From Rhizophagus irregularis (Eukaryota; Glomeromycota; Glomeromycetes; Glomerales; Glomeraceae), in assembly GCF_026210795.1 (NCBI RefSeq), contig NC_089438.1, positions 1,385,501 to 1,449,500 on the forward strand: a stretch of DNA of 64,000 bases. Reading direction: 5' to 3'. Below, in pieces: positions 3,349-52,288 of this stretch. Position numbers and translations under genes: made by a program. The notes beneath the pieces are model-generated. The model saw nothing but the letters and a program-made list of their open reading frames with translations, searched no databases and had not been told where the DNA came from. Position 1 is the stretch's first letter, and each line of letters begins with the position of its first letter.

Positions 3349-3430
3349 TCTATTTTTAATGGTTTAATCAATGTAATTAATTGAAGTTTCATGACCCATT
3401 GGGCCAATATTTCATTTGGAATAATGTAGA

Positions 3431-3600
3431 ATGATCAGTAATCTTTTATCATATATATAATCATAAAACTTTCCTATAACCCATACTACAGTTAAGCATT
3501 CTAACTCTGTGGCAGTGCAGCTGGTAACAATGAACTGCTTGCATAATAAGTCTAACCAATCTTTAGGTATTGGAAATTTCATTTTACTTCTATCAAGTTT
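3431..3600 (-). pseudogene. degraded Ty3/gypsy RNase H fragment
   Basis: On the minus strand a short open stretch reads TATELECLTVVWVIGKFYDY. This matches the conserved RNase H start of Ty3/gypsy pol proteins (family pattern ITELECLAVVWAIEKFRHYIYG). Outside about 45 codons the frame breaks up and no integrase or RT is attached, so this is a decayed scrap of an LTR retrotransposon. Confidence 0.55.
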
Positions 3601-6386: not shown

Positions 6387-8168
6387 AATATTCAAATATC
6401 AAAATCAATTTCATGTGTAATATATCTTATATTTTTAATTTAAAGAAATTAGTGTTATTAAGATCATACAAATTATGTAAAATTTTAATATTTTACTTAC
6501 TTTTATTAATGATACATTTTTCAGAATTTATATCAATATCCAACTCAAATTGTTTCGTAATATAATCTAAATAATGAAAACAAAATAATTAAATTAAACA
6601 TAAATTATTTTTATTGTAAATACGCAAAAGATTTTACCATTATTTTCATTTTCGGTTAATTTAATCTTTTTAATAATTTTGTCTAGAAATATTTTATTTA
6701 ATTAGTAAATAGTGAATGATGTTTATATTAATCCCCTGTTGCACTAAGTATACTAGTTAGCTGAGTTTATTAAGAACTATATAATTTTTACGATTTTTTC
6801 CATTATTCTACCTAGTCATTTTTGGGTCATCAATCCAAATAACCTTATAAATTTTATTAAACCTCCTTCAGGAATAAACTTTACATTTGTGACCAGCTAA
6901 TTTATTACCACTAATTAATGTATGTTTGATAAAATCATCAATAACTTTGTCCCCACTTGTATATATACTGATTTCGCTTTATAACAAACGCAACAAATCT
7001 GATGATTTTTATTTAAATATTTCTGCATAACGATTTTGTTTAATTGTGGTTTGTTTTGGCAGGCTTAAAGATGTGTTGCCTTATAATAAAAATCAATTGT
7101 GTGTTTATAATTTGTTAATTGTTCCATCATTAATTTTTTTTAAAAAAATATCTCTTTTGCTTGAGATAAAAACTCTAAATATATATGTTTTATTTTAAGC
7201 AAGGACGAACTTAGAAAATTCTATAATAATATAATATTCGTAGAAGTTTCTAATTATAAAGATCGGCTGGGTAGCTAATCTAGAACTGTAACATGAAAAA
7301 GATTTTTCGAATGGATTTTTAATAAGAATTCCAACAAAGAATTCTATAGAAGCGTTACATGCTGTAAGAGGATGGCTAGAATTGACCGTTATTTAATTAG
7401 AATTTTATAGAAGCGTTACAGGCTGCGAGGGATTTAATTATTAGGATTTTTGACTTCATGTCATACTCCTTTTTAAATTTTTCAAATGGGAAATGTGTAA
7501 CGTCATCTATAGACTCAAAGAATTTTTATTACTTAAAACAGTTTATATGGCGTTCATATAACTTTCGTAATACAATGTTAAATTTGTTACCATTTTATTT
7601 TGATTTCTTACAAAGTGAAAAGGTAGTGAACAAATCATCAGAAATCTATCATTAGGAGTGCTGCTATTATTGTGATTTTATTTAATAAAATAACAAGTAT
7701 TCTCGGACATTCGTATTAAATTCTTTATTTGAAATATAAATCGAATTCTTCTTAATATCAAATAATGGAAGTCCCTCGAATTTAATTTATTGAAAATCTA
7801 TTATACTGAATTTTTAAAAAAATTTCATTCTAATAAAACTAATATACACTATAATTTAATTTTTTCATTTTAGTTTTAAGTCATAGAGGTCATTAAAATA
7901 TTTTTAATTGAACATATAAGACTTCAGCCGGAATTAAGATTTTTATAATTCTGGCCAAAATTAAGATTTACCGCATCACGTTACTTAAATTTTATTGGTT
8001 AATGACCGGGATCCGGTTTATCGAATCATTTTTACTATAGCTAGTTAGAAAATTGATCCAATATCAATCTTTTACTAGTAAACTCTGGTATATCAAAACT
8101 ATTTTAATAAACGTGATTTGGTTTCAGCAAAACGTCCGGTTTAGGCCCAAATCCGGTTTATCGAAGAT
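6387..8168. other. AT-rich stretch; insertion-site repeat near its end
   Basis: No supported gene. The final 150 bases contain two further copies of ATCCGGTTTATCGAA, the sequence into which the LTR element at 8173 inserted. Confidence 0.4.
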
Positions 8169-8172
8169 CCGG
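8169..8172. repeat. 4-bp target duplication (CCGG), left
   Basis: CCGG directly precedes the left LTR and recurs directly after the right LTR at 15738-15741. The word is palindromic and short, so it is weak evidence alone, but the related solo LTR at 39414 is also flanked by a 4-bp repeat (TTAT). Confidence 0.6.
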
Positions 8173-8766
8173 TGTAACACCTGAGCCCATAGAGAATTAC
8201 CTCAGGTATTAACAAAATGACTCTTTATTAATAATATAAATATATACAATAATATGCTTGGTTTAATAACATTAAATAACAAAATAAATAATTCATAACA
8301 AAATTCGTCTAATTTTCTCCCAAAAGGTGATCTTCACGCCCTTTTATGTTTGTTTTTGTGTAACTAAATTCATAATTTCAATTCATGGATTTAAATTATT
8401 AAAGTATTTCCATTGTTTTAAAGTATTTCCATTATCTTAATTTTGTATCCATTTGATCATCATAAACTCCTGAATTATGATTTATAATATTAACGTAGTG
8501 ATCAACAAATTACTCACTTGACATCTCAGATCACTTGATTTCATTCAATTTAGTATCTTTCGGATCTTCATTTATCCTTAAATCTCGTGACTAATAGTTT
8601 AAGGTCATCACGGACCAATTACCTTAATCCATGTGATTATTAGTTTAACGACTTCTCGGTCCAATTAAAATAAAAATAAAAATAAGTTAAAATTTTATAC
8701 ACTAAGACTAAATGTAATACTGCGCCTCACAATTAATAAATTTACTAGATATACTACGGCATTACA
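8173..8766 (-). repeat. 3' LTR, 594 bp
   Basis: Begins TGTAACACCTGAGCCC and ends CGGCATTACA on the plus strand. It lacks the 9 bases TGTTTGCCA present in the other LTR and otherwise appears identical to it. Confidence 0.9.
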
Positions 8767-8778
8767 ACTATCCCCCGC
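8767..8778 (-). other. polypurine tract
   Basis: On the element's sense strand the bases GCGGGGGATAGT lie directly before the 3' LTR, as expected for the plus-strand primer of LTR retrotransposons. Confidence 0.65.
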
Positions 8779-9103
8779 ATAAAAATTTAATGCCCACATT
8801 AAATTTATTCTAAAAATCGAACTCGTGTCTCGAAGTGGTAGGTGCGAATTATACCACTAAATCAAACATGCATTGTCACTTGACTCAGCTGCGTTTTAAA
8901 TATTCCTTTTTGCTGCGTCTATATCTGCGGTTTATCATGTGTTTGTTAAGTCTACGGTTTTCCTGTACCGGATTTCACTTCGGTCTTTCTTAGGAAATTT
9001 TCATTAGTTTTTCCTATTTTCGAAAATTATTTTTATGTCATGTGATTTTATTTCACATGATTATAAATTATCTTTATTTTTCTAAGTCCATTGATGATAG
9101 TTA

Positions 9104-10885
9104 TCATTTACTCATCGGTGTATGGTAAGTCTTTAATAATTCTCCATTTACAGGTATCTTCTTGATGACACCTTTAATATTTTTAATTCTATAAGCTCCA
9201 TTCGGTAGTATTTCATGAATGTAAAATGGTCCTAACCATTTTGATTCTAATTTTCCAGATAGTTGTTGTGCTTTGGCTTTATCATAGAGTAGTATTTTAT
9301 CTCCAATTCCAAAGGTGTGTTCTTTGCTTATTTTTCTGTCATGATACTCTTTTTGTTTTATTTGAGATTTCAGTATTTGTTCTTTGGCTTCATGTCGGAT
9401 TTTTGGTAGTTCTTCTAATAATCCAACTATTCTATCACTTAGGTTAATTTCTTTGATATTTTCATCCATTATTGTCCGTACATTTCTTCCGTATGTTAAG
9501 TAAAATGGTCGAATTCTTGTTGAACTATGCTTTTTATTTCGGTAAGCAAATAATATGGGTGCTATCCTTTGATCCCAATCATCTTTGGTTGATAATTTTG
9601 CTAATGCTTGACCTAATGTTCGGTTGAATCTTTCAACAAGTCCGTTTGTCTCTGGATGATAACTTGTAGAAAAATTCCATTTAATTTTGAATTTTTCCAT
9701 TAATTCCTTAATCATTTCATTATTGAAATGACTTCCTCTATCACTCAATATTTTCATTGGACATCCATGTCTACAAATGATGTCTTCATAAATAAATTTT
9801 GATACTTCTTTGGCAGTTGCTTCTTTTACTGCTTTGGCTTCTGGCCATTTTGTAAAATAATCCATTGCTACTATGATGTATTTATTACCATTTGTTGTTG
9901 TGTTCAATGGTCCAACAAAGTCAATCCCGATTTGATACCATGGTTCTACTACTTTAATTGGGTGTAATTCATTTTTCCCTTGTGGTTTTCCTCTTCTTTG
10001 ACATTCATCACATGTCCTTACATATCTTTCAACATCATTCAGCATATTTTCCCAATAATATTTATCTTTTAAATTATCATAAGTACTTTTGATTCCCATA
10101 TGTGCCGATAATTCATGACTGTGAGCTAAATATAGTGCTCCCATCTTTTCAAAGTCTTCTATTATTCTGATGTTTTTACCATTTTTCTCAATATGCTTTT
10201 TACCATCAGTTACTCTGATGTTATCCTTAATCTCAACATTTTTAACCTCTATTGGTGGTTTATCTCCATCTAATTCTATTATTTTATTATATACTCTTTC
10301 CCAATCTGTGTCATTATTTGATATTTTAATATTAGCATATTTTTCTCTTTCGTAAATATCTTGACATTCTTTAAATGATTTCACCATCTCCATATATCTT
10401 TCTTCATCTAATAATGGGTATGATGTTTTATGTCCTTGATCCTTTTTCGAATATTCTCTACCTTTGTAATTTTCCCAACATTTTTCATTTTCTAAAAATA
10501 TCACTATTGATTCATCAATTATCCTTTTGTTCCTAAATACTTCCTTTTCTAATAGGTGATTCTCATATCTTGTTATGTATCCTCTGTCGAATGATGGTGT
10601 TTGTTGATAAAAGTACTCACTATAGGGACTTTTATCTAATATTAACCAATCCTCATTATCATGTTCTTCCATTCTCCTGTTGATTTGTTCGACAACTTCC
10701 TTCCTGAATTCCCATTCTATACCTTTCTTTGGTATTTTATACTTATCATTGTCCTCTCTTCTCCTTTTAAAGGTGTTAAACCTCACACTTTGTCCTACTT
10801 TTTCAAATTCTTTTATAAGTTCATTTACAATGAATGTTTTCCCAGTACCATCAACTCCACATATGATTATTATTTTAGGTCCCAT
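9104..10885 (-). CDS. thymidylate-kinase-like domain fused to Ty3-type integrase, 593 aa
   Basis: Residues 1-205 form a P-loop nucleotide kinase domain. They contain the Walker A motif GVDGTGKT (10-17) after a hydrophobic beta strand, then LDKSPYSEYFYQQ (83-95), which resembles the DRYxxSxxAYQ signature of thymidylate kinases, and a long lid/helix region. Residues 250-300 hold an HHCC zinc module (H257, H262, C292, C295). Residues 315-425 hold the integrase core with D322, D382 and E418; the D382-E418 spacing is exactly 35. Residues 525-590 carry a GPY/F module (WLGPFY at 550-555). The kinase would phosphorylate a nucleotide, and the integrase would insert the element's cDNA. A kinase in this position is not part of the usual Ty3 pol order (PR-RT-RH-IN). 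The ATG overlaps the end of the 79-aa frame by 11 bases in another frame, so reinitiation or frameshifting may couple them. Domain calls are by motif; the nucleotide substrate is inferred only from family resemblance. Confidence 0.88.
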   Translation of the reverse strand: MGPKIIIICGVDGTGKTFIVNELIKEFEKVGQSVRFNTFKRRREDNDKYKIPKKGIEWEFRKEVVEQINRRMEEHDNEDWLILDKSPYSEYFYQQTPSFDRGYITRYENHLLEKEVFRNKRIIDESIVIFLENEKCWENYKGREYSKKDQGHKTSYPLLDEERYMEMVKSFKECQDIYEREKYANIKISNNDTDWERVYNKIIELDGDKPPIEVKNVEIKDNIRVTDGKKHIEKNGKNIRIIEDFEKMGALYLAHSHELSAHMGIKSTYDNLKDKYYWENMLNDVERYVRTCDECQRRGKPQGKNELHPIKVVEPWYQIGIDFVGPLNTTTNGNKYIIVAMDYFTKWPEAKAVKEATAKEVSKFIYEDIICRHGCPMKILSDRGSHFNNEMIKELMEKFKIKWNFSTSYHPETNGLVERFNRTLGQALAKLSTKDDWDQRIAPILFAYRNKKHSSTRIRPFYLTYGRNVRTIMDENIKEINLSDRIVGLLEELPKIRHEAKEQILKSQIKQKEYHDRKISKEHTFGIGDKILLYDKAKAQQLSGKLESKWLGPFYIHEILPNGAYRIKNIKGVIKKIPVNGELLKTYHTPMSK

Positions 10886-11114
10886 TTTTATATAATTCTG
10901 ATAATTTTAGCTCGTTTACCTTACTTAATATTACCTCTATTTGTAATATTTCCTCTTGAGTTTCCAATATTAATGGTCTTTCTTCACTATCTTCAAAATT
11001 TTTGGTTTTGAATTTATAGTTATAATTTATCCTGTTTAATTCCTTTGTTATACCTTCTAAATTTTTGATTATATCCTTTATTTTGTGATTTGTATTTCTT
11101 ACCACTTGTTCCAT
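10875..11114 (-). CDS. small coiled protein of the LTR element, 79 aa
   Basis: A 79-codon frame rich in Lys, Glu, Ile and Leu, with heptad-like spacing in the first 35 and last 30 residues, suggesting helix or coiled coil. Its stop lies inside the start of the kinase-integrase frame (11-base overlap). No known domain. It could be a separate small protein or the 5' part of a frameshift-linked polyprotein. Confidence 0.5.
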   Translation of the reverse strand: MEQVVRNTNHKIKDIIKNLEGITKELNRINYNYKFKTKNFEDSEERPLILETQEEILQIEVILSKVNELKLSELYKNGT

Positions 11115-11181
11115 TTTTATTTTTGAAAAGTAACTCTTTTACCCATCTATTTATATTATTCTTGATAAGGCATCTGCATTT

Positions 11182-12177
11182 TTATTTTCTTTTCCTACAA
11201 TTTCCACATACTAAAAAGTCCTCTGTTAATATCAATTCTATCCTTATCCTTAGGTCCCACATTCTTCGTATATCTTTGTCGGTGAACCTTCCACCCATTT
11301 CTTCAATTTTTCTTTTTAATGATTCCACTGTCCATTCGACATTATCCTCTATTTTTATTTCATAATGTATACTACCATCACTGTCCTCTAATTCATAACT
11401 TTCAGGACTAGCACTTTCTGGGTCCTCAGGTTCCCTTGTAAATTGTTTGGTATCAATAAATCTTTGTCTTACTTTTGATACATATCTTATCCATGCATCA
11501 CCTCCTTCTTGCGTGTCTGTCTCACATCTATTCTGATATTCTATCTGGAGTAATAATTCAATTACCTCTTCTTTCCTCAACAGATCTTCTGTTTCTTCAT
11601 ATAATAGATCCCTGAATAACTTCATTGCTAACTTCTTAACATGTATTGCTTTCATTTCATTTTCCAATATCGTGTTATACCAATCCCAAAATTTTTGAAA
11701 TCTATTTTCAACATCCCAATCTTCTAAAATGTATCCATGTTTCATTATTTCTGGACATCCTATTAATCGATCAAATACTTCATTTTCCAAGTTTCCTTCA
11801 ATACAATCCCTTACAATTACTACAATTATTATTCTCAATCCTTTTTCCTTCATTTTTGGTTGTTGTCTGTACCCTATTGATTCAATTATTCTATCTACTA
11901 TATTCCTACATTTTCCCTTATGTATTGTATCCTCCCTTTCTCTATTGTCCATACTTAATAAATTCAATAATTCTTTATGTGTTACATTATTGTACATTAG
12001 TATTGTATCCTCGAATTTAAATAAAGCATCCCAAAATTTCTTGAATGCCGCTGATACTTCTCTTTCTATTGGGTTACATATTTCACATGCTAAACATTCC
12101 TCTGGTTCTATCACTCCTAGGTCATGTTCTTGTTTATGGTTTATATATTCAGCGTTCCAAACATGGTACCATTCCAT
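11182..12177 (-). CDS. unknown protein of the LTR element, 331 aa
   Basis: An intact frame with an ATG start inside the element. It has a short Cys cluster near the N terminus (CLACEIC, about residues 28-34), a Glu/Ser-rich acidic stretch near residues 240-265, and a C-terminal CGNC close to the end, so it may bind metal. The middle is mainly helical in character with Trp-rich spots (KFWDWYNTI). I find no RT, RNase H, protease or gag motif. It lies between the 235-aa frame and the 79-aa frame on the same strand, in the position where RT would normally be encoded. It may be a structural or replication partner of the kinase-integrase, but nothing in the sequence proves this. Confidence 0.7.
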   Translation of the reverse strand: MEWYHVWNAEYINHKQEHDLGVIEPEECLACEICNPIEREVSAAFKKFWDALFKFEDTILMYNNVTHKELLNLLSMDNREREDTIHKGKCRNIVDRIIESIGYRQQPKMKEKGLRIIIVVIVRDCIEGNLENEVFDRLIGCPEIMKHGYILEDWDVENRFQKFWDWYNTILENEMKAIHVKKLAMKLFRDLLYEETEDLLRKEEVIELLLQIEYQNRCETDTQEGGDAWIRYVSKVRQRFIDTKQFTREPEDPESASPESYELEDSDGSIHYEIKIEDNVEWTVESLKRKIEEMGGRFTDKDIRRMWDLRIRIELILTEDFLVCGNCRKRK

Positions 12178-12356
12178 TTTTAATAAAATTTTATTTACGG
12201 TTTATTTTATTTTGATCACTTTTTAATTTATACTTTTAAGACGATAACCTTTATTTATATTTTATCCTTTAATATTTACATGTTTCCTCATTTTACATGA
12301 TTTTCAAACATATCTTTTGATAAATTATCCTTATTCTGTCATTTTACTCCATTATT

Positions 12357-13064
12357 TTAATTCCTAAAATGTCCGATTATCTCCTTCTTTTCTGATTCTG
12401 TAAATTTTATTATTGTTGTCACAAATGTTTCCTTTATTCTATTTATTTTGTCTTGTCCGATTTCAATAAATAATTCATATATTTTTACAGCTCCTTGCAT
12501 CCTTTCCTTTAATGCTCCCCTTACTCTAAGTTTTTCTTCAGCATCTTCATCCCCTTTTACTAGTAGTCCCATCATTTCATTGTACAAATCTCTCCTGGCT
12601 GTTTGTTCTGATTTCTTCTTCCTTCCTTGATTCTTCATTTCCTCCACCTTTCGTTCAAAATCTCGTCCGAGAAAATACCATTTTTGAATTGCTCTGGAGT
12701 TTATATCTCCTAAGTCAAGATATTTTTCCACTAACTTTTCTATATCATTAATTTCCTCATTCTGATTGTCAATTCCAGTGAATTGACTTTCTAACGTCAT
12801 TCCCTCATTTCCTTTAATTGGTGTGCTCACTTCTTTGATAAATTTTTCCACTTTATCTTCTTTTTTATTTTTCTTTATCTCAGCATTTTCTTCACAGACT
12901 CCACAACTTTTTCTTTTCCCTCCATTATTAGTTGTCTTTTTAGCTAGGATTTTCTTTTCAATTATGACCTCATTTTTATCATGTATTTCTATTTTAATCT
13001 GTTCTTCACCTCGTAAGTATTTTCCCAATTCTTCTTCAGTTAAATTGATTTTATGTACAATCAT
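12357..13064 (-). CDS. unknown basic/acidic protein of the LTR element, 235 aa
   Basis: First protein of the element after the leader. It is very rich in Lys and Glu, with a CGVC pair near residue 54 followed by a lysine-rich run (KKNKKEDK) that could be a nuclear localisation signal. The C-terminal half is predicted helical by composition. Its position is that of gag in ordinary LTR elements, but no gag motif or CCHC knuckle is visible, so the gag role is only a guess from position. Confidence 0.65.
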   Translation of the reverse strand: MIVHKINLTEEELGKYLRGEEQIKIEIHDKNEVIIEKKILAKKTTNNGGKRKSCGVCEENAEIKKNKKEDKVEKFIKEVSTPIKGNEGMTLESQFTGIDNQNEEINDIEKLVEKYLDLGDINSRAIQKWYFLGRDFERKVEEMKNQGRKKKSEQTARRDLYNEMMGLLVKGDEDAEEKLRVRGALKERMQGAVKIYELFIEIGQDKINRIKETFVTTIIKFTESEKKEIIGHFRN

Positions 13065-13134
13065 TTTAATTTCTTGTTATAATTATTATTATTTTATTAT
13101 TATCGTTATTTTGTTATATTTTGAAATAATAAGT

Positions 13135-13152
13135 GGGAGATCCAAATCTCCC
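13135..13152. repeat. hairpin motif, copy 1
   Basis: GGGAGATCCAAATCTCCC folds into a hairpin with GGGAGA/TCTCCC arms. The same motif in the same AATAAGTGGGAG context recurs at 14029-14046 within the leader. Confidence 0.6.
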
Positions 13153-14028
13153 TCCTATATTTATATTTTTCCTTGGTCATGTGATTTTTGTCAATCTTCC
13201 TATTTTTATTACTTATTACATCATTCATCTTGATGTTAATTTCATTCCATTTTATTTTTTCAACATTCTTTTCACATCCATTTTATTTTATAAATTTCAA
13301 ATTTTCCAGAGTATCCATATTAATTCGATTTCAGAAATTCATTTTGTACATTCTTAATACAAAATCCACTTTACATTTTCTGAACTTCATAAATTTTATT
13401 GTTCATCTCATCCATCATTTTTTTTTTTTTTTTTTTATGTTCAAAATTCCCTTTACTATAATAAAATTCTTCTGTAGAAATTTTCCTTTATTTTTCCTTC
13501 ACGCCATTTATTCTCCACACAATTTATTTTTCCCATCTTTTCTTGGAAATCTAATTATCATTTTATCCTCTTTTAGTAATTATTACTTCTATTGGTCCAT
13601 TTAATTTTAATTTATCCTTTACTCCTTATTATGGTAACTTTTAATCTTATCGGTTCTCCTTTTCTTTTATTTATTTTATTTTGTGTAATAAATTACATCA
13701 TTATATAATTACACGATTAATTGATCTACATAACTTACTGTACTATTTGTATTACCTCATGTGATTTGACTTGTCTTACCTACATTTATTACACTTACTG
13801 CACCATCTTGTGTTACCTCAAAAATATACAAATAGTACCGCCTTTCCTTTTATCTCTCACCTTTTCGTATTTTCTTCAATTATTTTCTTTTGGTAAGTTT
13901 TACTGTGCCTTGTGTAATATTTATTAGTCACCTGACTTGTGTAATACATGTGATTCATATCTCTCACATGTCTTGTACTACTCACATGATCTTGTGTATT
14001 ATTTTACTGCACCATTCATTTAATAAGT

Positions 14029-14046
14029 GGGAGATTCAAATCTCCC
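14029..14046. repeat. hairpin motif, copy 2
   Basis: GGGAGATTCAAATCTCCC, the second copy. It differs by one loop base from copy 1, about 0.9 kb away. Confidence 0.6.
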
Positions 14047-14427
14047 TCTTTCATATACTCTTACTACGCCTCAAATTCTATTATATCCTAAAATTTACTG
14101 TGCTTTGATAATCTTTAATTAATAATCTCGACACCTGTGTTGACATTTTATATAATTTTACTGCGCTACAAAATCTCTTATCATTTATATCCTTCTTTTA
14201 TATTTTATTTGACCTATACTGGGCTTGCCTTTACCTCATTTGTTCATTACTGAGTATGGTAGTTTACAGGTTTGTACAAATAAATTTATATTCCATAAAA
14301 TTTTCCAACCTAAGGTTGGGATGTGTTTCCATATTTGATTTATCTCTTTCCTGTAATTTTCATATTTGTCCAGCAAATATTATTTTAATTTTTGTTAACG
14401 TTAATCATGATTTTTCTTGGGTACCCT

Positions 14428-14619
14428 CACACAGAATTGTTTTTGAAAGTTCACACAGAACTATTCTCAATTGATCACACAGAATACCTCAATTGAGTTC
14501 ACACAGAAAAAGCTCACACAGAACTATTCTCAATTGATCACACAGAAAACCTCAATTGAGTTCACACAGAATTATTCTCAATTGATCACACAGAAAACCT
14601 CAATTGAGTTCACACAGAA
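14428..14619. repeat. tandem repeats built on TCACACAGAA
   Basis: Three 48-bp units alternate TCACACAGAA with CTCAATTGAT and CTCAATTGAG, and are flanked by extra TCACACAGAA words (eight or so in all). The sense strand of the element reads TTCTGTGTGA. The tract sits about 0.5 kb inside the 5' LTR and could bind a protein in DNA or RNA form. Confidence 0.8.
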
Positions 14620-15116
14620 TTACCCTACCATCGTATTTATAGTGTCAGTTTTTGGGTACACTTTTTATCCTTAACTTAACCTCAATTATTTATAAAAATT
14701 ATTTTTAATCCTTAATTCATGGAACTTATTTACAATATTCTATTAAAACCCCTTCTAACTTGATTAGCCTCGCATTTCCCTTGATAATCAATTACTACCA
14801 TACATATTTGGTTCATATGTATGAAAATTATTGCAATAATAATTTTTCATTGACCAAATTAATACCTTTTACATTGGTAACCATTATTTTCACGTATCCT
14901 TTAAAATATTTGACTTTATTTTATTAACATTTGTCATTAATACACCTTAAATTCTTTTTTAACCAAGACTTAGAACTTTTAATTTTATAATTCCTTAACT
15001 TCGTCGATCCTTTATTCGTAACTTCTAATGATCACGTGGGGGTGATCATTTTCTTTTCTCAGAGATCCTGTACTTATAACCTGTAGTGATCATGTGAGGA
15101 TGATCACTTTTCCTTT

Positions 15117-15132
15117 CTCGGAGCATGCACCA
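15117..15132 (-). other. putative tRNA primer-binding site
   Basis: On the sense strand TGGTGCATGCTCCGAG begins two bases after the 5' LTR. It starts with TGG, the complement of a tRNA 3' CCA end. I could not name the tRNA. Confidence 0.55.
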
Positions 15133-15134
15133 CT

Positions 15135-15737
15135 TGTAACACCTGAGCCCATAGAGAATTATGTTTGCCACCTCAGGTATTAACAAAATGACTCTTTATT
15201 AATAATATAAATATATACAATAATATGCTTGGTTTAATAACATTAAATAACAAAATAAATAATTCATAACAAAATTCGTCTAATTTTCTCCCAAAAGGTG
15301 ATCTTCACGCCCTTTTATGTTTGTTTTTGTGTAACTAAATTCATAATTTCAATTCATGGATTTAAATTATTAAAGTATTTCCATTGTTTTAAAGTATTTC
15401 CATTATCTTAATTTTGTATCCATTTGATCATCATAAACTCCTGAATTATGATTTATAATATTAACGTAGTGATCAACAAATTACTCACTTGACATCTCAG
15501 ATCACTTGATTTCATTCAATTTAGTATCTTTCGGATCTTCATTTATCCTTAAATCTCGTGACTAATAGTTTAAGGTCATCACGGACCAATTACCTTAATC
15601 CATGTGATTATTAGTTTAACGACTTCTCGGTCCAATTAAAATAAAAATAAAAATAAGTTAAAATTTTATACACTAAGACTAAATGTAATACTGCGCCTCA
15701 CAATTAATAAATTTACTAGATATACTACGGCATTACA
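15135..15737 (-). repeat. 5' LTR, 603 bp
   Basis: TGTAACACC...GGCATTACA on the plus strand, near-identical to 8173-8766 with one extra 9-bp segment. CCGG at 15738-15741 repeats the left target site. Confidence 0.9.
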
Positions 15738-15885
15738 CCGGTTTGTCGAATTTCACCGTAGTCCAAAATTAACATAAATTTCTTCCAATCTTTTCGTTTT
15801 TTGAAAATATCGATCCAAATACTTGATAATTTTCACCATTATTTAAATCTTTTTAAATCTTTCAAATCGGTAATTCCTGTCATTA

Positions 15886-16071
15886 TCATCTTTCAATATA
15901 TCTTTGTTGTTCGACTCCAAGGATCTTATAAAAAGGAATAATATTATCAGATTTAATAATTTCCAGATTATTGTCAGTGTTTCGAATCCAATTATGTAAG
16001 TCATTTTTTTCAATAATCCTTTTGACCTTCTCCCCTTTTAATAAGTAACGTGTTTCTTTATTAACAATCAA
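15886..16071 (-). CDS. small hypothetical frame, 61 aa
   Basis: A 61-codon frame with ATG start and protein-like composition (KGEKVKRIIEKNDLHNWIR). It lies just outside the LTR element, has no recognisable domain, and could be an exon or relic of the interrupted locus. Confidence 0.25.
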   Translation of the reverse strand: MIVNKETRYLLKGEKVKRIIEKNDLHNWIRNTDNNLEIIKSDNIIPFYKILGVEQQRYIER

Positions 16072-18726
16072 AATCTAAAATATAGATTATATGAAAATTT
16101 TGAAACACCTAAGACATTTGTCCAGACACAAATGCCAATCATTTATCTAATCTAACTATCTATCTAATGAAATCTATACTATTCTAACAACTAAAACAAA
16201 AAAATATTATATCGAAAAAAAAAGAAAAAAAGAAAGGAATTAACACTTTTTTTGCAAAAAAAAATTTACTATTATTTAGCAATAACTGAAGTCCTAGCAA
16301 CAAAACTTTTTGTGCAGCGTGTCCTTCTTCATACATCATTTGCTAAACATAGACAATAGTATTAATAAAAAATTTAAAATTTACCAACTTGAAAAATTCC
16401 TACACTCTCTAATTTAGTGGAATTCTCGAAACTTGAATTATCTATTATTAGAAGATGTTTGGCCATTTGTCCACGTATCTGACATATCTAATACTCTCCC
16501 CAAATAAATATTCAAGGTCCAACTTGAAATGATCATCAGGTGATGCAGAGCATAAACTTTTTATTCAATTAATAACTTATATAATCTGCAAAATCACCTC
16601 ACCTACTAACATCCCTATTGGTTCATTTCTTCTCCAAAATTTTCTTTTTTTGACCAGAAAACGGGATGAAATCTTTCTGAGCCCTCCGAAGCCGAAAAAT
16701 TCCGAGAGAAACAAAAAAAAACCAAGTGCGTATTTTATAAAAATGTGAAGATTATATCTACGGGTAGGTAAAAGAGTGACAAACGAGTTGGACGTAAGAA
16801 ACGTGTTAAAATGAGAACTTTATATATATACTAAAATCTTCCAAGTCTTTTTTCTCCTCGTAAAAAATTTTTGTCGAGGGATCGACAGGAGAGTTTTTTT
16901 TTTCGACCTTTCCCTTTTAGTTAATAAATATGAAATATTTAAATTATCAATATTTTATTATAATCAAAAGTTGTACTAAGTGCTGATAAAATACGATCAA
17001 TAAACATTAATTATTTCTTAAAATTATAATAAATGATATTTTAATACCCTTGTTATTATTCACCCATATTATTTTATTTTTGCATAACTTTTTTTCTTTT
17101 AACTCCGTTAATTACAATATATTATCCTATTTAATTAATCATAATAATATATGATTGAAACAAGTTTTTTATAATATTTATAATATTATTCAAACAAAAA
17201 ACATTTACTAATCATCACCATCACGCCATTGTGTTAAAAATCATAAGATTATTTGATTGAACAATTAGTAATTTTATTCGATTAGAGTGGCCAAAGAGCT
17301 AAGTAACAATATAAACAATACTGTAACAATAAAAAAGAATATTTTAATTTTTTTTTATTTTTGTAATTGTTGTTTTCCAAATTTAGATGAATGTTTAAAA
17401 ATCTTATCAGCAATCTAGCCGATTAATGCACGTAATGCTAAATAATTTTAATTATCGACTAAGAGCTAAAAATGTTTAAGTTTGAATTTAACATCTGCAG
17501 GAGCATGTGTCGATCGTTTCATTTATTTTTAGTTTTTTTACATAGCCCACCATTCTTTTTTATAATATTTAAGTAAACCCCTTACATATTGAAAAGTATC
17601 CAAGATTGTATTTATGTAATCGGCCTAGTCGAATGGAATTTTTTTTTTTTGTCTTTCTTATGAGGCCAATGAATTTCGTGGAATACGGGTTCAAATTAAA
17701 ACGAAATATGATTCCTTACATGTAATATACGTTAACAAAAATAATTTTTTTTAAAAAAAATAAAGAATAATTATGAATTATGAAAGTGATTCTTCAAGAT
17801 GTAGAAAAGTTTATTATATTATATAATTAGAAAATACTAATAATTAAATTTAAAAATAATAGTAGTTTCACAAAAACAAAAGTTGCTAAATCAATTATCA
17901 TTTTATTCTATCTGAATATTTTCGAACGGTACTAGAATTTCTAACTTCTATTAAATTCTTGGTTCTTGGCTGAGGCTAAATACTAAGTTTTTACTTGGCT
18001 CTAATTGCGATCTTTGTTAAATTCGGCCAAGATTTTATGATCTGCAAAACACAGATGTGCGACTTGCTTCGGAATAAATTTTTAGATCTTTTGGATTTTT
18101 GTGCGTGTAACCATATCATATATACGATTTGAAAGATTTGATATCAAATTTTCACACACACGAGCCAAGAGAGAGAATTATGTAAAAGTAAAAGATAAGG
18201 AGATAAAGAAATGAAAAAGGGGAATCGCGTTTACTTTGACGCGAAAAACAATCGCGATATGATTGAGTAATTATGAATAAACAAATCTTTCTTTCTTTAT
18301 TTTATTCGTTCGCAAGCAATTAAAATTCCTTGAAAAAAAAAAATAAAAACATTACATACGCCAAGGATATATCCAGATAATTTATTGGTTATCATTGAAA
18401 GGTTTTTTTACCTTAATTTCGAATGCACTAATAATTATATATTTATTTATAATCAAAATTTCAAATTATGCAAAGGACTTTACCGATTTGTTAACATACG
18501 AGTTTTAATTATTTGGTAAATTTTATCTATTTTTAAATTAAAGATTATATTGATGAATTTTTATATAAATATGATGCTTCTTTTCTTTCAGTTTTTTTCA
18601 AGTCAGCTTAATATCTTGAAAAGAAAAAAACAAAGTTACATATAATAACTGTCTTACTATAAAACAAAAAAATAGAGATATATTATCCCAATACCCTTTA
18701 GAAATTTTCGCTCAAAACCTCGTAAA
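16072..18726. other. intergenic, upstream of the secreted repeat protein
   Basis: No supported exon. A TATA-like TTTATATATATAC occurs near 16808, but no frame follows it. The last 150 bases, rich in A and with TACTATAAAAC near 18655, are the likely core promoter of the gene at 18727. Confidence 0.4.
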
Positions 18727-21383: not shown

Positions 21384-24300
21384 ATGTCAAAAGAAACTTT
21401 TCAAATTATGAAAAGACCAGGTTTCGGTAATAAAGGAGTACCGATAAAAATTCAAACAAACTTCTTTGAAGTTACTAATAAGATACCGAAAATGAAAATT
21501 ACACATTATGATGTAACGATATTTCCTGAGGTCCCTCCGCGATTAAATATTAATAGGAAAGTATTTAACCATTTTTCAGAGGAAAACCAAGTAGACCTTG
21601 GGGGCGTAAAACCAGTATTCGATGGTACATATTTGAAAAAAAAAAGATATATATTTTTCGTTACAAATGTCCAAATATTGAATAATGCAAAACGAATAAA
21701 ACGAATGTAATTTTATAATATAGAGAGATACCAAAATTGTGTTATGTAATTCTTTTTTTAAAATTATTAATGCTATATGATGTTTAAATATATGCTTGTA
21801 TTTAAAGAAGGAAATAGATACTTACTAACTAATAACAAATGTTTGTAGGAATAAAAAATATGTTTACACACAAGCCATTGCCATTTAAAGACAGAAGTTT
21901 TTATGTAAAAAACGTAAAATATCTTGAATTTTATTTTTTACTTTTTTTTGACTTTTTAAATTATTTAAGTTTAATTATCATAATTAGGTAGAATTAGAGG
22001 AGGACAACATGCCCATGGGTAGTAAACGTCCATTTCGAAGATTTACAATTAGGATAAGAAAAACTAGAGATTTTTTCATGGAAGACCTATTCCGATTTTT
22101 ACACGCAAAAGGCAAGATGACCTGGAATTGCAAAATGGGTAAGTTTTTTTTTCTTTATTTCTTTAATAAGAATGAATCTCATAATGGATTATAATAATAT
22201 TTATGTTATAAGCAATAACGGCAATGGGCGTCATTATCAGTCATGAGATTTTTACAAACCATCCTACTATACGTAATTTATTTTATACTTCGCAGGGAGC
22301 TATACCCCTCTTTGGGGGTATAGAGGCTTGGCCAGGGTATTACCAATTAGTACGTCCCACAATGGGAAAAATGATGATAAACATAGATTCAAGTGCTACC
22401 ACTTTCTATGAAGGTGGTCCACTTATTCAGATGATTGTAAAAATATTGGGTCTTAGATCTCCCAATGATCTACGTAAAGGATTATCAGATAGTAAGGACC
22501 GTCGAAAAGTTGAAAAGATAATAAAAAATCTTAGGATAAGTGATAATCATATACCGGAAAATAGACGAAATTTTAAGATTGAAAAATTAACTCGAAGTTC
22601 AGCTTCAGACACTACGATTAATAGAAATAAGATCGATGTGGAAACCTATTTTCAAAAAAAATACAAAAAACGTTTATTATACCCATTTCTCCCTTGTGTT
22701 GTTGTAGGAAAAAATTATTATCTTCCGATAGAAGTTTGTGACGTAATTCCGGTAATTATATTTTTATCTAGTGACATAATATAAGAATTTTTTTTTATCA
22801 TATTTATTTTGTATAGGGGCAACAACACATACGGAAATTGAATGAAATACAAACAGCTGACATGATTAAATTTACTTGCCAACCTCCGAGTGCTCGGGCA
22901 AATAAGATCCTGGCTAGTCTCAATATATTAGATTATCAAAATAACGAATACCTTAAACAATTCGGGATGGAAATATCAAACGATATGACTGTGGTAAGTT
23001 TGAAATATTATTATTGCATCATAGGAATGTATCATCAATAACGCGAATTTACAGGTAAACGCTAGGATTCTTCCCACTCCAATAATTCAGTACCACCAAA
23101 CATCAAAGGAGAATCGTATCGAACCGAAAGGTGGAGAATGGAATTTACGAGATAAAAGAGTAGCAACAGGTGCTACCCTTGGTTCATGGTCAGTTTTGGC
23201 CTTTTTAAATGAAAAGGAATTACCTGATAATATTATTATTGCATTCTTGAGAAAATTTTTTATTACATGTCAAGATACGGGAATGGTAAGTTAAAACCCA
23301 TTTCAGTATTATTCATTCAAGTTTCTAACTAATATTATTTAATCATTTATCTTTAATAGAATATTCTAAATAGATTTCCTCCTATATGTCGCGAAAATGG
23401 AAATACTGAAGAATCATTAAGAAAAGCCTGGTTGAGGGCTGGCAATAATGCGAAAGTTAAACCTCAGCTTATTCTATGTATTCTCCCACATAGATCAGTT
23501 TTGTATGGCGAAATTAAACGTGTTAGTGACACAGTTATTGGTGTCGCAACACAGTGTGTCCTAAGTAAAAAAGCGAAAACCCTGAAAAAACAATATCTTG
23601 CAAACATTTGCCTAAAGATAAACGTTAAACTTGGAGGAGAGAATTCATTTCTTATTCCCGAACATATTCAATTTGTGGCAGATGAACCTACTATTTTGAT
23701 GGGCGCAGACATTACTCATCCTTCGCTTGGTAAATTGTATATTTTTTTTTTTCGTATGAATTATTTTACTAATATATTTATGTTTCTCGCATATCTCTTC
23801 AGGTGGTTACATAAGTCCATCTTATGCTGCCTTATGTGGTTCTATGAATGCTAGGGCGTCACGTTATGTAGCATCACTTAGGGTTCAAACCGGTCATACT
23901 GAAATAATAAAAGATTTAAAAGATATGGTTAAAGAATTGTTAAAAACATTTTATCAAACTCATAGGTTAAAACCTAAAAAAATTTTATTTTACCGAAATG
24001 GAGTTTCAAAGAGTCGATATATTGATGTGCTAGGGAGTGAACTAACCGCGATTAAAGGTAATTAATACATATTATTCTTAGATTTATTCACACTTTTCGT
24101 TAATCTATTTAATTATTACAGGCGCGTGTAAAAGTCTTGAGACTAATTATGAACCCACTATCACGTTTGTTTTGGTAAAGAAGAGACGCCACACACGTTT
24201 TTTCCCAATGGAAAGTAAATATACTGATAGAACGGGAAATTGTCTTCCTGGTACCGTTGTTGAAACGGACATTACACATCCATTTGAATTTGATTTTTGT

Positions 24301-32459: not shown

Positions 32460-33345
32460 TCTATGTTAAATTTAATAACAAAAGTATTGTTCATTTTACA
32501 ATAAACAATGATACAATATATCGTCAAATTGTCAGTTTGTCTTATTTTTATGGAGGATATGTAACAGATGAATTGTTTTGTGCTTGGCCGAATATCACTA
32601 CTAATCTCAATAATAATATGAGTGAAAACATTATTTCATAATTTTAGTGATCTTTTTTGTAACTCTCATACTATTCCTAATAATTTACTGTCGTGACGGC
32701 AAGCCTAAATTAATTTTCAATAATTATATGTGAAGAACCGATCATATGAAGATAATTATGGAAGTTTAGAATATAAATTGGAATTAAAACCAAAACTAGT
32801 AGAACAACTACTCAATCCAATGAAGTTCGTCTTAAAGTTTTTTTCACATATATTTTCAAGACGATGGCATGTGCCATGACTATTACATTGTATAGTTTGC
32901 GAGATTTGCTAAATTTAGAACAACAAGAATATATAAATAATTGGAGATTAATAAATTTCACAAATTTCTTTATTTTTAGAATGCAAAAACGTGATGAATA
33001 TGTATTTTTTTTAATCTTTATATTAAAAGGGGTTTAGCACAAAAATATAATTTTTCTTGCATAAATTGTAGAAAAAGTTTAAAAAGACATTTTGCAAGAA
33101 AAAATATGTTTCATCTGCTGGTGTTCCATTAATTGAAAAAGTTAACAAAAGATCTGAAGAATCTGGAAGGGTTCAAATTTTGGAAACTTTATTACGAGAT
33201 TATCATTTAAGTTATTATTTGAAGAAAGTTAAAGATGTTAAAACTAAACATAAAAAACTCGTTAAAAAATATGATGAAAGTAACAGGCAAGACAAAAAAA
33301 ATACAGAAAATACAAAACTTAATGCTATTATAGTTTTTATAGTTT
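32460..33345 (+). pseudogene. pseudogene copy of the membrane-protein gene at 36615
   Basis: Collinear, diverged match to exons 2-5 of the gene at 36615-38099: AATATCACTACTAATCTCAATAATAA against AATATTACTACTAATATCAA, then TATAAATTGGAATTAAA, and GGGTTCAAATTTTGGAAAC near the end. Intron remnants such as ATATTAAAAG before GGGTTTAGC remain, so this is a genomic duplicate and not a retrocopy. In-frame stops (for example TAG in GGGTTTAGCAC), frameshifts and an insertion in the first part destroy the frame. Exon 1 with the first membrane segment is not found. Confidence 0.75.
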
Positions 33346-36614: not shown

Positions 36615-38099
36615 ATGTTTTTAAGCGCAATATATAATTATCGATCAACTGAACCGGTTTGGTTTAGATTTTTTCGAGGTTTTTTTGCTATTACTCTCAC
36701 CGGGATAATCATATATTATTCAGTCAATCAATATCTAAGACTTGATAAAGAAGCCTTTATTACTATAAAGCTTGAATATTCTACTGGTAGGAAAAAATTT
36801 TATAAAGAATCGAAATTAACAATAAATAAAATAAACACACATATTTTCAAAAAACAGGATATATACTTAACATGAGTATATGTACCGAAATTTCCAACGA
36901 GATTAATAACGTTAAATTTAATGTGCTCCCTGAATTTTATGGAGAACTGACGTTATCTAACGATACAATAAACCATCAGAATGTTAGCTTGTTTGATATT
37001 GGATATTCTTATTCTTGGCTAAATATTACTACTAATATCAATAATAATATTAGTGAAACCATATTTCACAATTTTAGTGATCCTTATTGTAACCCTCATA
37101 CTATTCCTAATAATATATTGTCTTTAAATTTTGAATCATTTCAATATTTACTTCCTTACAAACCTGATCTAATTTTCAATACTGATAAATATAATATTAT
37201 TAACAGTATTAAAAATGATGATAATGACAATATAGGGATAATAGAAACAATAACTCATTTTTCACTTTACCTAGGAAGTGCTTATATTATATCTTACAAA
37301 CCGATTATTATTAACAATGAAGATACTTTTGGAAGTTTAAAATATAAATTGGAATTAAATCTACAATTAGAACAACTACCCATACAATTAGAATCCAATG
37401 AAGTTCGACTTAAAGTTTTACCAATCGAACTTTCATATTCGAGAATTGCTAGATTTGAATCAACAAAAATATTTGGTTGTAAGTATATTTTCTTATGTTT
37501 ATTAATGTAAATTCAGTCAAATTAATATTTTTAATTTTATTAGATACAGATTTAATATCTAATCTTGGAGGTTTCTACGGTGCTATAGTTGGTAAGATAC
37601 AAATCATGTTTTAAAAAAATTATACATATACAGTTTAATAAAATTAATGTGAATTTTATAGGAATTTTTTGTTTATTTTTTGGAATGCAAAAGCATGAAC
37701 CATGGTAAGTAATATATATAATAATTAAGAAATTATTTTTTACATATTGTATATTAATTAATTTTTCTTTTTATATTAAAAAGGGGTTTGGCACAAAAAT
37801 ACCTTTTTTCTTGCTCGTATTGTAGAAAAAGTTTAAAGAGAAATTTTGCAAGAAAATATGTTTCATCCTCTGGTATTCCATTAGTTGAAAAAGTTAATAA
37901 AAGACCCGAGGGATCTTCTTTAGAGGAAAGGGTTCAAATTTTGGAAACTTTATTACGAGATTATTATTTAGATGATTATTATCTTAAGAAAGTTAAAGAT
38001 GTTAGAACTAAACGTAAAAGTCTCCTTAAAAAATACAAAGAAATCAACAGACAAGATAATGAAAATACAGAAAATACAGAATTTAACTCTTTAGTTTAA
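36615..38099 (+). CDS. two-TM membrane protein with coiled C-terminal tail, 5 exons, 399 aa
   Basis: Exons: 36615-36786, 36858-37478, 37544-37591, 37662-37704, 37784-38099; GT-AG introns; 1200 bases in frame. A short N-terminal segment precedes a first membrane helix (about residues 20-40, FFAITLTGIIIYYSV). Next comes a ~220-residue domain with many Asn-X-Ser/Thr sites, probably lumenal or extracellular. A second membrane helix follows near 268-290 (LGGFYGAIVGIFCLFFG). The C-terminal ~105 residues are basic and then form a likely coiled coil (ERVQILETLLRDYYLDDYYL). A diverged pseudogene copy lies 4 kb upstream on the same strand, so the gene belongs to a locally duplicated family. Function unknown; a receptor or anchor role would be only a guess from topology. 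Confidence 0.82.
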
Positions 38100-39413: not shown

Positions 39414-40059
39414 TGTAATGCCGTAACTTACCTAGTAAATTTATTAATTATGAGGCGCAGTATTATATTTAAAATTAGTGTAAAATTGTATTTTAATTGG
39501 TCCGCAATGACATTAAACTATGAAACAGATGATTAAGGGATTAACGTCCGAGATGACATTAAACTAGAAGATAATTGGGTCAAGTGATTAGTTGGTAAAT
39601 CATAAAGAACATATATAATTAGGAATTTATGTAATCATTACTATGATCATTTTGGATATGATGACAAATACTAGGGAATGATGGTTGTGATTAACGAACG
39701 AAAGAAAATGAAGTACCAAATTCTTTTAAAAAGGAATGAAATCCGACGTCCTCAAGAAATGAGGTTAAGAATTTTGAAAATAAGTAATAATTATAATTTA
39801 CTTTTAGAATAGAGGATTTCGATTCTTTTTGCCTTTTTCTTATGATGAAAAAGTGTCATATTAATTAATTTAATGGTATTATTGAAAGGGTTCTAATATG
39901 GGAAAATTATCGCAATTTGAAAATTTAGGATAAATATTTAATTGTTATTTAACATTATTAAACCAAGCATATTATTGTATCTATTTATATTATTAATAAA
40001 GTATTATTTTGTCAATATCTCAGGTGGCAACGTGACTTATCACGGGCTTAGATGTTACA
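39414..40059 (+). mobile_element. solo LTR of the kinase-integrase element family, 646 bp
   Basis: Starts TGTAATGCCGTAAC and ends GGGCTTAGATGTTACA. It matches the reverse complement of the 594/603-bp LTRs end to end, with landmarks GAGGCGCAGTATTA, AAACCAAGCATATTATTGTA and TATCTCAGGTGGCAACG. It is flanked by TTAT on both sides (39410-39413 and 40060-40063), the same 4-bp duplication length as the full element. Its orientation is opposite to the full copy. It presumably arose by LTR-LTR recombination. Confidence 0.88.
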
Positions 40060-49800: not shown

Positions 49801-49940
49801 GGAAAAAAAACTCTTTCCGACGATCGTAAAATACCAAAAATTCACAGAAGAAATTTTCGTTAAAAAACGCATTTCTTTATAGACAAGTACCATTTTCTTC
49901 ACCAGTTTTGGCCTCTACGTTCTCTTCGGAACATTATCAT

Positions 49941-52175
49941 ATGAGTTTTAATATTGGAAAAAAATTTTCAAAAAAATTCCTAAAAAACATAGAAAAATCT
50001 TATCGTTCGGTAACTAACGAAGAAGATATATACTATACGTACTCTTCACCAAACACAGTTAACAATATGTCTAACCGTAAACCTAATAACCTTCCTGAAC
50101 CAAATATCGATAAAGTACCTACGGACTGTCCTATGGAAGAAGTTATAGCTACTTCTTTAACTCACGACCTCTCTCACAGCGAAATTGAACTCACATCACG
50201 TGACCTATCAAAAAATGATACTCACACGCAAACACCAATCAACGAAAACTTGACTAATATGGAGGAAGATCCTTCGGAACCTAATCCAGATAAAGGAAAA
50301 TCACCGGAATCACAAACAGCCACACAATCAAACTTACCAAATGCGATTCCAATGATCGTGCTAACTGATATTTTTACACAAACATCACAAGCTCTTAACA
50401 AAGCACACAAAGGATTTATTCCCAGAGATAGTTTTAAATCTGATCTTTCAAACAACGAAATAATTAACTTACTAAAAACGGCATTTATCCGTGACAGTAA
50501 CGCCTTCAAATTTGAATCCAACGTAACTTCCACATACAAATATTTTACTATATATTTTAGAACATGGGACTCACTTAAGCAATATATAGAAAAGAGCCCT
50601 GATAGCCTTAAACAGGTTAAAATATACGAATTAACCAATGAAGCTATCAACACCTTATTGGATCAAAAATTCGCTAACTTGGACGCAGCAGTCATAAAAA
50701 TTATGGATATACCTTATAATTATGACACATCAATGCTTATTAAACACCTTGCTATCAAGACCAACAGCAATATTATAGACCATAAAGAACTCAAAAAACT
50801 GCCAAGAAAATTACCTAACCGCAACAATCGTGGACGCCCGATTTTCATCAAACCGGCATACAAACAACTAATCGTACGCTTCGATAAACAATCCGCCTAC
50901 GATTATTTCATGAAAGAAAACTATTGGAGCTTAGAAATAGAAAATTTCGTAGTAAGAATTCTACCAGGCAATCAGAATGACCCTGAGTATCAAAAACGCA
51001 CCAGTAAATATTTTAAAATTACTGGACTACCACTCAACACAACAGCTATGGATCTTAATCCACTTATCAAACATGTATATGGACGTACTTGTACGTTCAC
51101 ACAAACGACTCGATATTCAACTATGAAAAACGCTTACGTATATGTTTCACCAGAAAATTACCCTGATAACGCTACGGGAGGCGCGTCTTCACTATTCGAG
51201 AACCACAACATCTATATCATTCCAGGGCATATATCAGCCAAAACTTGCAACACTTGTGGATCCCCTTTACATATTTCTCAAAACTGTGACGATATAAACT
51301 TCAAAACAACAAGTGATAACCGTAAAATATATAACAAAAGATTTATTGATAGAAAAGAAGAAAAAATCACTATCCACGAGAACCACAAAAACAGATACAA
51401 TCACATGATTTCTCTTAACGCTAATAAAAACTCAAACTCATCACAAACCAACAACAAACGTTCATCATCACAAACAGATACCCACAATATAAGATCACTA
51501 CCTAATAAATCACAATACCCCCGTCAAACAAGACAACCATACAACAAAACACACAATATGAACGATATTAATAACTGGGACGAACCCTCTACATCTACTC
51601 CTCAATACCAGCATCAGCACACATCAAATGATGAAATAGACAAAAGAATCATAGAGCTAGAGAAACAAATACAAAATCTCCTAAATAATATTAAAACTTT
51701 ACAAGAAGATAAAGTTAAAACGGATAAAACAATCGCTGACATCCATCACAACGCTAGCCTAATGAACACATCACTTACGAATGTGAATACAAGACTAGAT
51801 AAATATGATTCAATCCTCGAACGTCTTACCACTAACATTAGTTTACTTAGTAAGAAAGAAATTTTATCCACACAAGAATGCCCTCGTAAAATATCCAAAA
51901 AAATTACACCATATGATCAAACTTCGTACAGATCCACCAAATCCAAATACAACCTTAGAAATAACAAAGACTACAACAATTCAGCTGAAGATAGTGAATT
52001 TGTCCCGGCAACAGAAGATGACACTGATGCCCCTGACGACACTGCTATGTCGGACGGTGCCATTTTCGAAGGCATAATTGATAAAACACTAGATGAACCC
52101 GTGAAAAATGACACTTTTACCGTCAAATCTTATAACCCATTGAACCTCCTCCCGAGCTTCAACGCGACACGCTAA
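49941..52175 (+). CDS. LINE ORF1 protein with CCHC zinc knuckle, 744 aa
   Basis: I place the start at the first ATG (49941); the frame is open slightly further upstream from a TTG. The N-terminal 200 residues are polar and acidic. The middle part has two stretches with RRM-like character. A zinc knuckle CNTCGSPLHISQNC (C-x2-C-x4-H-x4-C) lies at about residue 437. A polar Asn/Ser/Gln-rich linker follows, then a coiled coil near residues 570-640 (IIELEKQIQNLLNNIKTLQE) and an acidic tail. LINE ORF1 proteins bind the element RNA to form the ribonucleoprotein. At 744 residues it is longer than most ORF1 proteins. It ends 113 bases before ORF2, in another frame. Confidence 0.88.
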   Translation: MSFNIGKKFSKKFLKNIEKSYRSVTNEEDIYYTYSSPNTVNNMSNRKPNNLPEPNIDKVPTDCPMEEVIATSLTHDLSHSEIELTSRDLSKNDTHTQTPINENLTNMEEDPSEPNPDKGKSPESQTATQSNLPNAIPMIVLTDIFTQTSQALNKAHKGFIPRDSFKSDLSNNEIINLLKTAFIRDSNAFKFESNVTSTYKYFTIYFRTWDSLKQYIEKSPDSLKQVKIYELTNEAINTLLDQKFANLDAAVIKIMDIPYNYDTSMLIKHLAIKTNSNIIDHKELKKLPRKLPNRNNRGRPIFIKPAYKQLIVRFDKQSAYDYFMKENYWSLEIENFVVRILPGNQNDPEYQKRTSKYFKITGLPLNTTAMDLNPLIKHVYGRTCTFTQTTRYSTMKNAYVYVSPENYPDNATGGASSLFENHNIYIIPGHISAKTCNTCGSPLHISQNCDDINFKTTSDNRKIYNKRFIDRKEEKITIHENHKNRYNHMISLNANKNSNSSQTNNKRSSSQTDTHNIRSLPNKSQYPRQTRQPYNKTHNMNDINNWDEPSTSTPQYQHQHTSNDEIDKRIIELEKQIQNLLNNIKTLQEDKVKTDKTIADIHHNASLMNTSLTNVNTRLDKYDSILERLTTNISLLSKKEILSTQECPRKISKKITPYDQTSYRSTKSKYNLRNNKDYNNSAEDSEFVPATEDDTDAPDDTAMSDGAIFEGIIDKTLDEPVKNDTFTVKSYNPLNLLPSFNATR

Positions 52176-52288
52176 TTGTTGATCCTAAATCCTCAACATA
52201 TATTTGGACTTATCTACGATTCTCCCTTTTTGATTTCAACGTTTTAATTGTTTTTTACACATCATTTTAACTAAAATATTTTTTTATT

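Follow-up and report, generated by a model that had tools for sequence, protein, structure and literature searches.

The stretch analysed here, called the window, comprises 64,000 nucleotides of contig NC_089438.1 of Rhizophagus irregularis (positions 1,385,501 to 1,449,500) and contains a long terminal repeat (LTR) element at 8173-15737, read on the minus strand. This element possesses a 593-amino-acid (aa) open reading frame (ORF) combining a thymidylate-kinase-like domain with an intact integrase, and no reverse transcriptase (RT) of its own. Its features are given below in window coordinates, each with the basis of its assignment; proteins of related elements carry P numbers.

8169-8172, no strand: target-site duplication CCGG, left flank (flank comparison)
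8173-8766, minus: 3' LTR, left copy, 594 nt, with TG...CA ends (repeat search and LTR alignment)
8768-8778, minus: polypurine tract GCGGGGGATAG, directly ahead of the 3' LTR (sequence reading)
9104-10885, minus: 593-aa ORF (ORF list and translation)
9104-10240, minus: integrase region of the same ORF, in intact frame and carrying H2C2, D-D35-E and GPF (Pfam and motifs)
10241-10885, minus: putative thymidylate-kinase-like domain at the N-terminus of the 593-aa ORF (residues 1-215), bearing Walker A, GRE and DKSPYSEYFYQ motifs (motifs and profiles)
10875-11114, minus: 79-aa ORF beginning MEQVV, similar to the N-terminus of P0116 (50%, 26 aa, E 0.003; protein comparison)
11151-11195, minus: C-terminal remnant of RNase H, GKENKNADALSRII followed by a stop, in a frame different from that of the 331-aa ORF and marking a deletion junction (reading between ORFs)
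11182-12177, minus: 331-aa ORF, a shortened N-terminal portion of what is probably the gag protein encoded 5' in the lineage (comparison with relatives)
12357-13064, minus: 235-aa ORF, a 5' ORF of the lineage, sharing 41% identity with P0211 residues 3-191 (protein comparison)
15117-15132, minus: candidate primer-binding site beginning with TGG, 2 nt past the 5' LTR (sequence reading)
15135-15737, minus: 5' LTR, right copy, 603 nt, equal to the left copy plus one 9-nt insertion (repeat search and LTR alignment)
15738-15741, no strand: target-site duplication CCGG, right flank (flank comparison)

Aligned with each other, the LTRs show no substitution and a single 9-nt indel; their TG..CA ends and the short target duplication are those of Ty3-type elements (Metaviridae). 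The original prediction, made from the letters alone, had described a young LTR element with near-identical repeats, a 4-bp duplication, a polypurine tract, a primer site and a kinase-integrase ORF without an own RT, and all of this was found again, the primer site as a candidate. So were the motifs it named in the 593-aa protein: GVDGTGKT (Walker A) lies at residue 10 and DKSPYSEYFYQ at residue 84, besides H2C2, the catalytic triad D322, D382 and E418, with exactly 35 residues between the latter two, and GPY/F in its GPF form. Searched in full against Pfam, the protein matches Integrase_H2C2 (1.5e-17), rve (9e-11) and, under the cut-off of that family, Thymidylate_kin (0.0036). P0001 from R. 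irregularis DAOM 181602, likewise 593 aa long, is 98% identical with 9 differences and represents a cluster of 47 member sequences; the fused ORF is therefore multicopy or present in many strains. In P0002 (cluster of 6 members) the kinase is retained and the integrase core is gone, as in ordinary decay.

Upstream of the kinase-integrase ORF, an RNase H of Ty3 type has left its final 14 codons, which overlap the truncated 331-aa ORF; a remnant of the lost region is thus present at the junction, as in deletion derivatives. Its 12 residues GKENKNADALSR recur exactly in 12 of 31 proteins that match a wider pattern (218 compared), always N-terminal to the kinase. The original prediction had held the three other frames (331, 235 and 79 aa) to be free of RT, RNase H, protease and gag. 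This stands for the 331- and 235-aa ORFs, in which no Pfam family is found at E<=1, RT, protease and gag families included; the RNase H remnant had been overlooked. An RT hidden in these two ORFs, which had been considered as well, is rejected at the level of sequence, for neither yields a Pfam family and both match the 5' coding region of the lineage. A tblastn search of the window with 15 lineage proteins likewise reports no RT part within the element, nor the short RNase H remnant.

The 331-aa ORF has 57 relatives, and every one with an organism name is from Rhizophagus. Its match with P0163 covers 358 residues and is interrupted by a single gap of 27 residues, located at the C-terminal end of the window protein. 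P0183, P0204 and P0218 extend beyond the 331-like region into what appears by eye to be a gag capsid; because of this by-eye reading, and because Pfam finds nothing in P0218, the one of the three that was scanned, gag is given here as a probable label. P0211 contains a stretch like the 235-aa ORF and, behind it, one like the 331-aa ORF; this, the sole match of the 235-aa ORF, comes from lineage proteins gathered for other queries. By these matches the 5' ORFs of the window belong to the lineage. In P0146, P0151 and P0152 the 331-like part is continuous with RNase H-kinase; these proteins may represent similar deletions or gene-model joins. In the window copy the deletion apparently began inside the 5' protein and extended almost through RNase H, up to its last codons.

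The kinase domain is not private to the window copy, in agreement with what had been expected. Among candidates of 319-1015 aa, the P0057 kinase region as query yielded 45 proteins, assigned to R. irregularis or R. clarus wherever an organism is named, in addition to the P0001 cluster. (In the first protein search the 8000 best candidates were scored and the best 120 of 878 were examined.) RNase H lies N-terminal to the kinase in 40 of the 45 proteins, RT is present in 24, eight of which also contain a protease, and kinase and integrase share a single protein in seven. According to local phmmer, with PR for protease, RH for RNase H, KIN for kinase, IN for integrase and GAGN for the 331-like region, the architectures are as follows.

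RT-RH-KIN, 16
RH-KIN, 9
PR-RT-RH-KIN, 8
RH-KIN-IN, 4
KIN-IN, 3
GAGN-RH-KIN, 3
KIN, 1
PR-KIN, 1

The best solved-structure match of the RT-RNase H of P0124 is Ty3 (4.7e-106). In several relatives the integrase is probably encoded apart from the kinase, in an ORF of about 395 aa; P0129 and P0037, like P0134 and P0030, come from contigs of equal length, which is suggestive, though no proof, of a common contig for each pair. The P-loop is retained in 36, the DKSPY motif in 39 and the GRE motif in 35 of the 45 kinase proteins. Domains were compared in 15 of the 24 RT-bearing Pol proteins, nine being dropped as shorter, truncated or near-duplicate. The kinase is roughly as conserved as RT: over 105 pairs, many of them mutually close, mean pairwise identity is 79% for RT, 72% for the connection, 74% for RNase H, 77% for the kinase and 47% for the linker, the last value resting on only 7-8 columns in pairs with one group, which has no linker. 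Between groups, P0124 and P0134 are 71% identical in RT and 73% in the kinase, P0134 and P0145 72% and 64%. P0141 and P0142 combine a P0134-like RT (90-91%) with a P0145-like kinase (90-91%), which points to an apparent exchange of kinase modules between element groups. Across the 105 pairs, identities correlate at 0.95 for RT and RNase H and at 0.60 for RT and kinase. The name thymidylate kinase is already attached to five jgi entries (P0121, P0128, P0130, P0132 and P0139).

Profiles and motifs suggest that the domain is thymidylate-kinase-like. The phage family phrog_761 (thymidylate kinase) is its best viral family profile and matches 8 of 8 kinase sequences, at best with 1.5e-16, and the window domain with 1.6e-12 over residues 3-198 of 215. 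Thymidylate_kin (PF02223) likewise matches all eight at E<=0.1 (best 4.5e-8), and P0003 passes its curated cut-off (30.2 vs 27). In hhalign comparisons, five phage thymidylate kinases reach probabilities of 92-95%, four of them across 87-105 columns and that of phage Yoloswag across 35 columns of the P-loop only. Thymidylate kinases bear a signature of the type DR-x3-S-x3-YQ; besides Walker A, the window protein possesses DKSPYSEYFYQ, which aligns with LDRYLYSTIAYG of the Oceanotoga phage enzyme, K replacing R. Individual phage matches are weak, with E up to 10. Among those with E 1 to 6, some Gordonia phage records carry the label polynucleotide kinase and others the label thymidylate kinase. 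A dUTPase gene adjoins the kinase in two of the five phage records used in the hhalign comparisons. Phage kinase genes also differ from the domain described here in being free-standing. Scans with short peptide patterns, which reach close relatives only, confirmed no relative in viral contigs (593-aa protein and kinase alignment) or in bacterial and archaeal genomes.

We consider it probable that the window element is a recently inserted and non-autonomous copy, shortened by internal deletion, of a Ty3-type (Metaviridae) lineage of Rhizophagus, in whose full elements the kinase would supply deoxythymidine triphosphate (dTTP). Pol of this lineage would run in the order protease, RT, RNase H and thymidylate-kinase-like domain, with the integrase following as a separate ORF or fused to the kinase. 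The deletion would have fused the N-terminal region of the 5' (probably gag) ORF to the last RNase H codons, a second, in-frame deletion of 27 residues adjoining the junction, and would have spared the LTRs and leader, both 5' ORFs, and the small and kinase-integrase ORFs. Had it occurred before insertion, the copy would have moved with RT and capsid provided in trans; had it occurred afterwards, this would merely be a damaged copy. Made within Pol, the kinase would enter the particle alongside RT and there most likely phosphorylate deoxythymidine monophosphate, perhaps also other deoxynucleoside monophosphates, yielding dTTP at the site of minus-strand complementary DNA (cDNA) synthesis. The role in nucleotide supply put forward by the original prediction is plausible. 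The sense strand of the element consists of 44% A and 27% T (44% A in the 2-kb leader, 37.5% in the LTR), so that minus-strand cDNA is about 44% T and much dTTP would be needed; the A fraction is 0.43-0.48 in the three long ORFs of the element, while five ORFs elsewhere in the window have 0.36-0.41.

Several observations weigh against this interpretation. Similarity to known thymidylate kinases is distant: for the window domain alone the generic AAA_28 (3.9e-6; 27.6 vs 27, passing its cut-off) ranks ahead of Thymidylate_kin (4.3e-4; 20.4 vs 27, below it), and P0003 matches the dTMP kinase model TIGR00041 of NCBIfam with 4.8e-7, far under the cut-off (29.7 vs 83.25). In the same database a MeaB GTPase model is slightly ahead of dTMP kinase for P0124, and the window protein matches PRK08233, of unnamed function, with 2.5e-5 vs 0.0012 for dTMP kinase. 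A profile search of the Protein Data Bank (PDB) is led by FtsY P-loops (2.3e-5), followed by adenylate kinases (0.015) and thymidylate kinases (from 0.11). By hhalign, Tmk of E. coli reaches 60% with the P-loop only, and tblastn gives no match at E<=0.01 in phages (with the P0124 kinase) or plasmids (with the P0003 kinase). The A-richness is the composition of one element and may be a general retroelement bias, the linker comparison suffers from its few columns, and the deletion is read from the remnant and the proteins of relatives, not from full-length siblings sharing these LTRs.

It has also to be asked whether the domain is a nucleotide kinase at all. It could instead act on nucleic-acid ends, or serve Pol as a P-loop part with a structural or regulatory function. 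Its distance from characterised thymidylate kinases and the polynucleotide kinase labels of some weak Gordonia phage matches would allow this, and the inactive but required dUTPase-related protein of bovine immunodeficiency virus (BIV) offers a precedent (PMC4261571). We regard this as rather unlikely, given the retention of Walker A, DKSPY...YQ and GRE in most of the 45 proteins and a thymidylate kinase profile covering nearly the whole domain. Chance capture of a host gene by the window copy, with no role in the lineage, would fit the known habit of retroelements of capturing host genes, and is refuted, with almost no probability left to it, by a domain whose position is the same in 40 of the 45 proteins and which is about as conserved as RT.

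The absence of RT has been read in two other ways. The original prediction had offered, as an alternative to RT used in trans, a distinct LTR family without RT, and had named RT between the same LTRs in other copies as a finding that would speak against it; RT-RNase H does precede the kinase in relatives, and the RNase H end persists here, so that the proposal finds no support. In a narrower form, the kinase-integrase arrangement would be a long-lived, amplified family borrowing RT and capsid from its relatives, with selection preserving kinase and integrase. The 47-member cluster of P0001, of equal length, the intact kinase and integrase motifs and the LTRs free of substitutions are in keeping with this; cluster counts, however, are silent on RT upstream in those copies, a recent deletion accounts for intact frames without selection, and P0002 looks like ordinary decay. 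We therefore hold such a family to be unlikely. Ginger-type DNA transposons possess terminal inverted repeats and no LTRs. An integrase-only transposon of this kind would explain the presence of integrase, the lack of RT and the 4-bp duplication, but is rejected as exceedingly improbable by the direct LTRs of about 600 nt, the polypurine tract and the RNase H remnant; inverted pairs of at least 25 nt were not found in 7000-17000.

As a probable internal-deletion copy of a Ty3-type lineage, the element shares with Metaviridae its LTRs, the H2C2-DDE integrase with GPF and, in the relative P0124, a Ty3-like RT-RNase H. It differs in the kinase domain, situated between RNase H and integrase in the lineage, and in the lack of protease and RT from the window copy, in which no capsid was found and the RNase H end and integrase remain. 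BARE-2, Morgane, LARD and TRIM are non-autonomous LTR derivatives, many of them non-coding or defective in other parts. The window copy resembles them in its internal deletion and in that proteins would have to be supplied in trans, and is unlike them in retaining an intact integrase ORF with a kinase.

To our knowledge, dUTPase is the nucleotide enzyme described from Pol of retroelements. Lentiviral dUTPase is located between RNase H and integrase, and the BIV version, the precedent cited above, is inactive yet needed (PMC4261571); non-primate lentiviruses thus carry a captured enzyme of nucleotide metabolism at the same place in Pol. Bdelloid LTR retrotransposons have dUTPase between protease and RT, and bdelloid and basidiomycete elements likewise bear an enzyme of nucleotide metabolism in Pol (PMC5408684). 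The enzyme of the present lineage is, in contrast to these systems, a P-loop kinase, and the bdelloid dUTPase is placed elsewhere. Among titles and opening lines of abstracts in the open-access literature, no description of an LTR retrotransposon with a nucleotide kinase was recognised. A wider proposal is offered tentatively, as a genuine possibility: a Ty3-type clade in arbuscular mycorrhizal fungi may carry a working thymidylate kinase in Pol and package its own dTTP supply for A-rich RNA in nucleotide-poor resting spores and hyphae, a second, independent answer to the problem of the lentiviral dUTPase. A kinase domain between RNase H and integrase, conserved to about the degree of RT, would make dTTP limitation of retroelements directly testable in a eukaryote. 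Repeats of arbuscular mycorrhizal fungi also consist in part of elements with unusual Pol architecture, some pieces of which carry host-like names such as thymidylate kinase.

Further repetitive features occur in the leader. Two consecutive 9-bp hairpins of the type GUGAUCAU / AUGAUCAC are located at 15027-15108 (minus), right behind the primer-site candidate, and are a possible packaging or dimer signal; folding of this region is barely above that of shuffled sequences (z -1.08, 29 of 200 shuffles equal or better). A hairpin-like motif of 37 nt, GGGAGAT...ATCTCCC, is present in two copies with 86% identity (13127-13163 and 14021-14057), and tandem repeats containing CACACAGAA in alternating units occupy 14422-14619. 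ARAGORN detected no tRNA in the window, and a tRNA matching the primer-site candidate was not found.

Outside the element, a short stretch at 3418-3510 (minus) resembles the RNase H of P0145 (45%, 31 aa, E 4e-4). Part of an Argonaute gene, an ORF in which ArgoL1 and PAZ domains are recognised, lies at 22224-22784 (plus). The segments 32626-33322 and 37056-38086 form a diverged direct duplication with blocks of 81-92% identity, spaced about 4.4-4.8 kb apart. At 39414-40059 (plus), with TTAT at both flanks, lies a solo LTR, TGTAATGCC...TGTTACA, which belongs to a related family and is about 72% identical to the LTR of the element across about 174 aligned positions. The region 49908-58237 (plus), in which a 755-aa ORF precedes one of 1982 aa that matches RVT_1 (1.7e-21), has the appearance of a long interspersed nuclear element (LINE).

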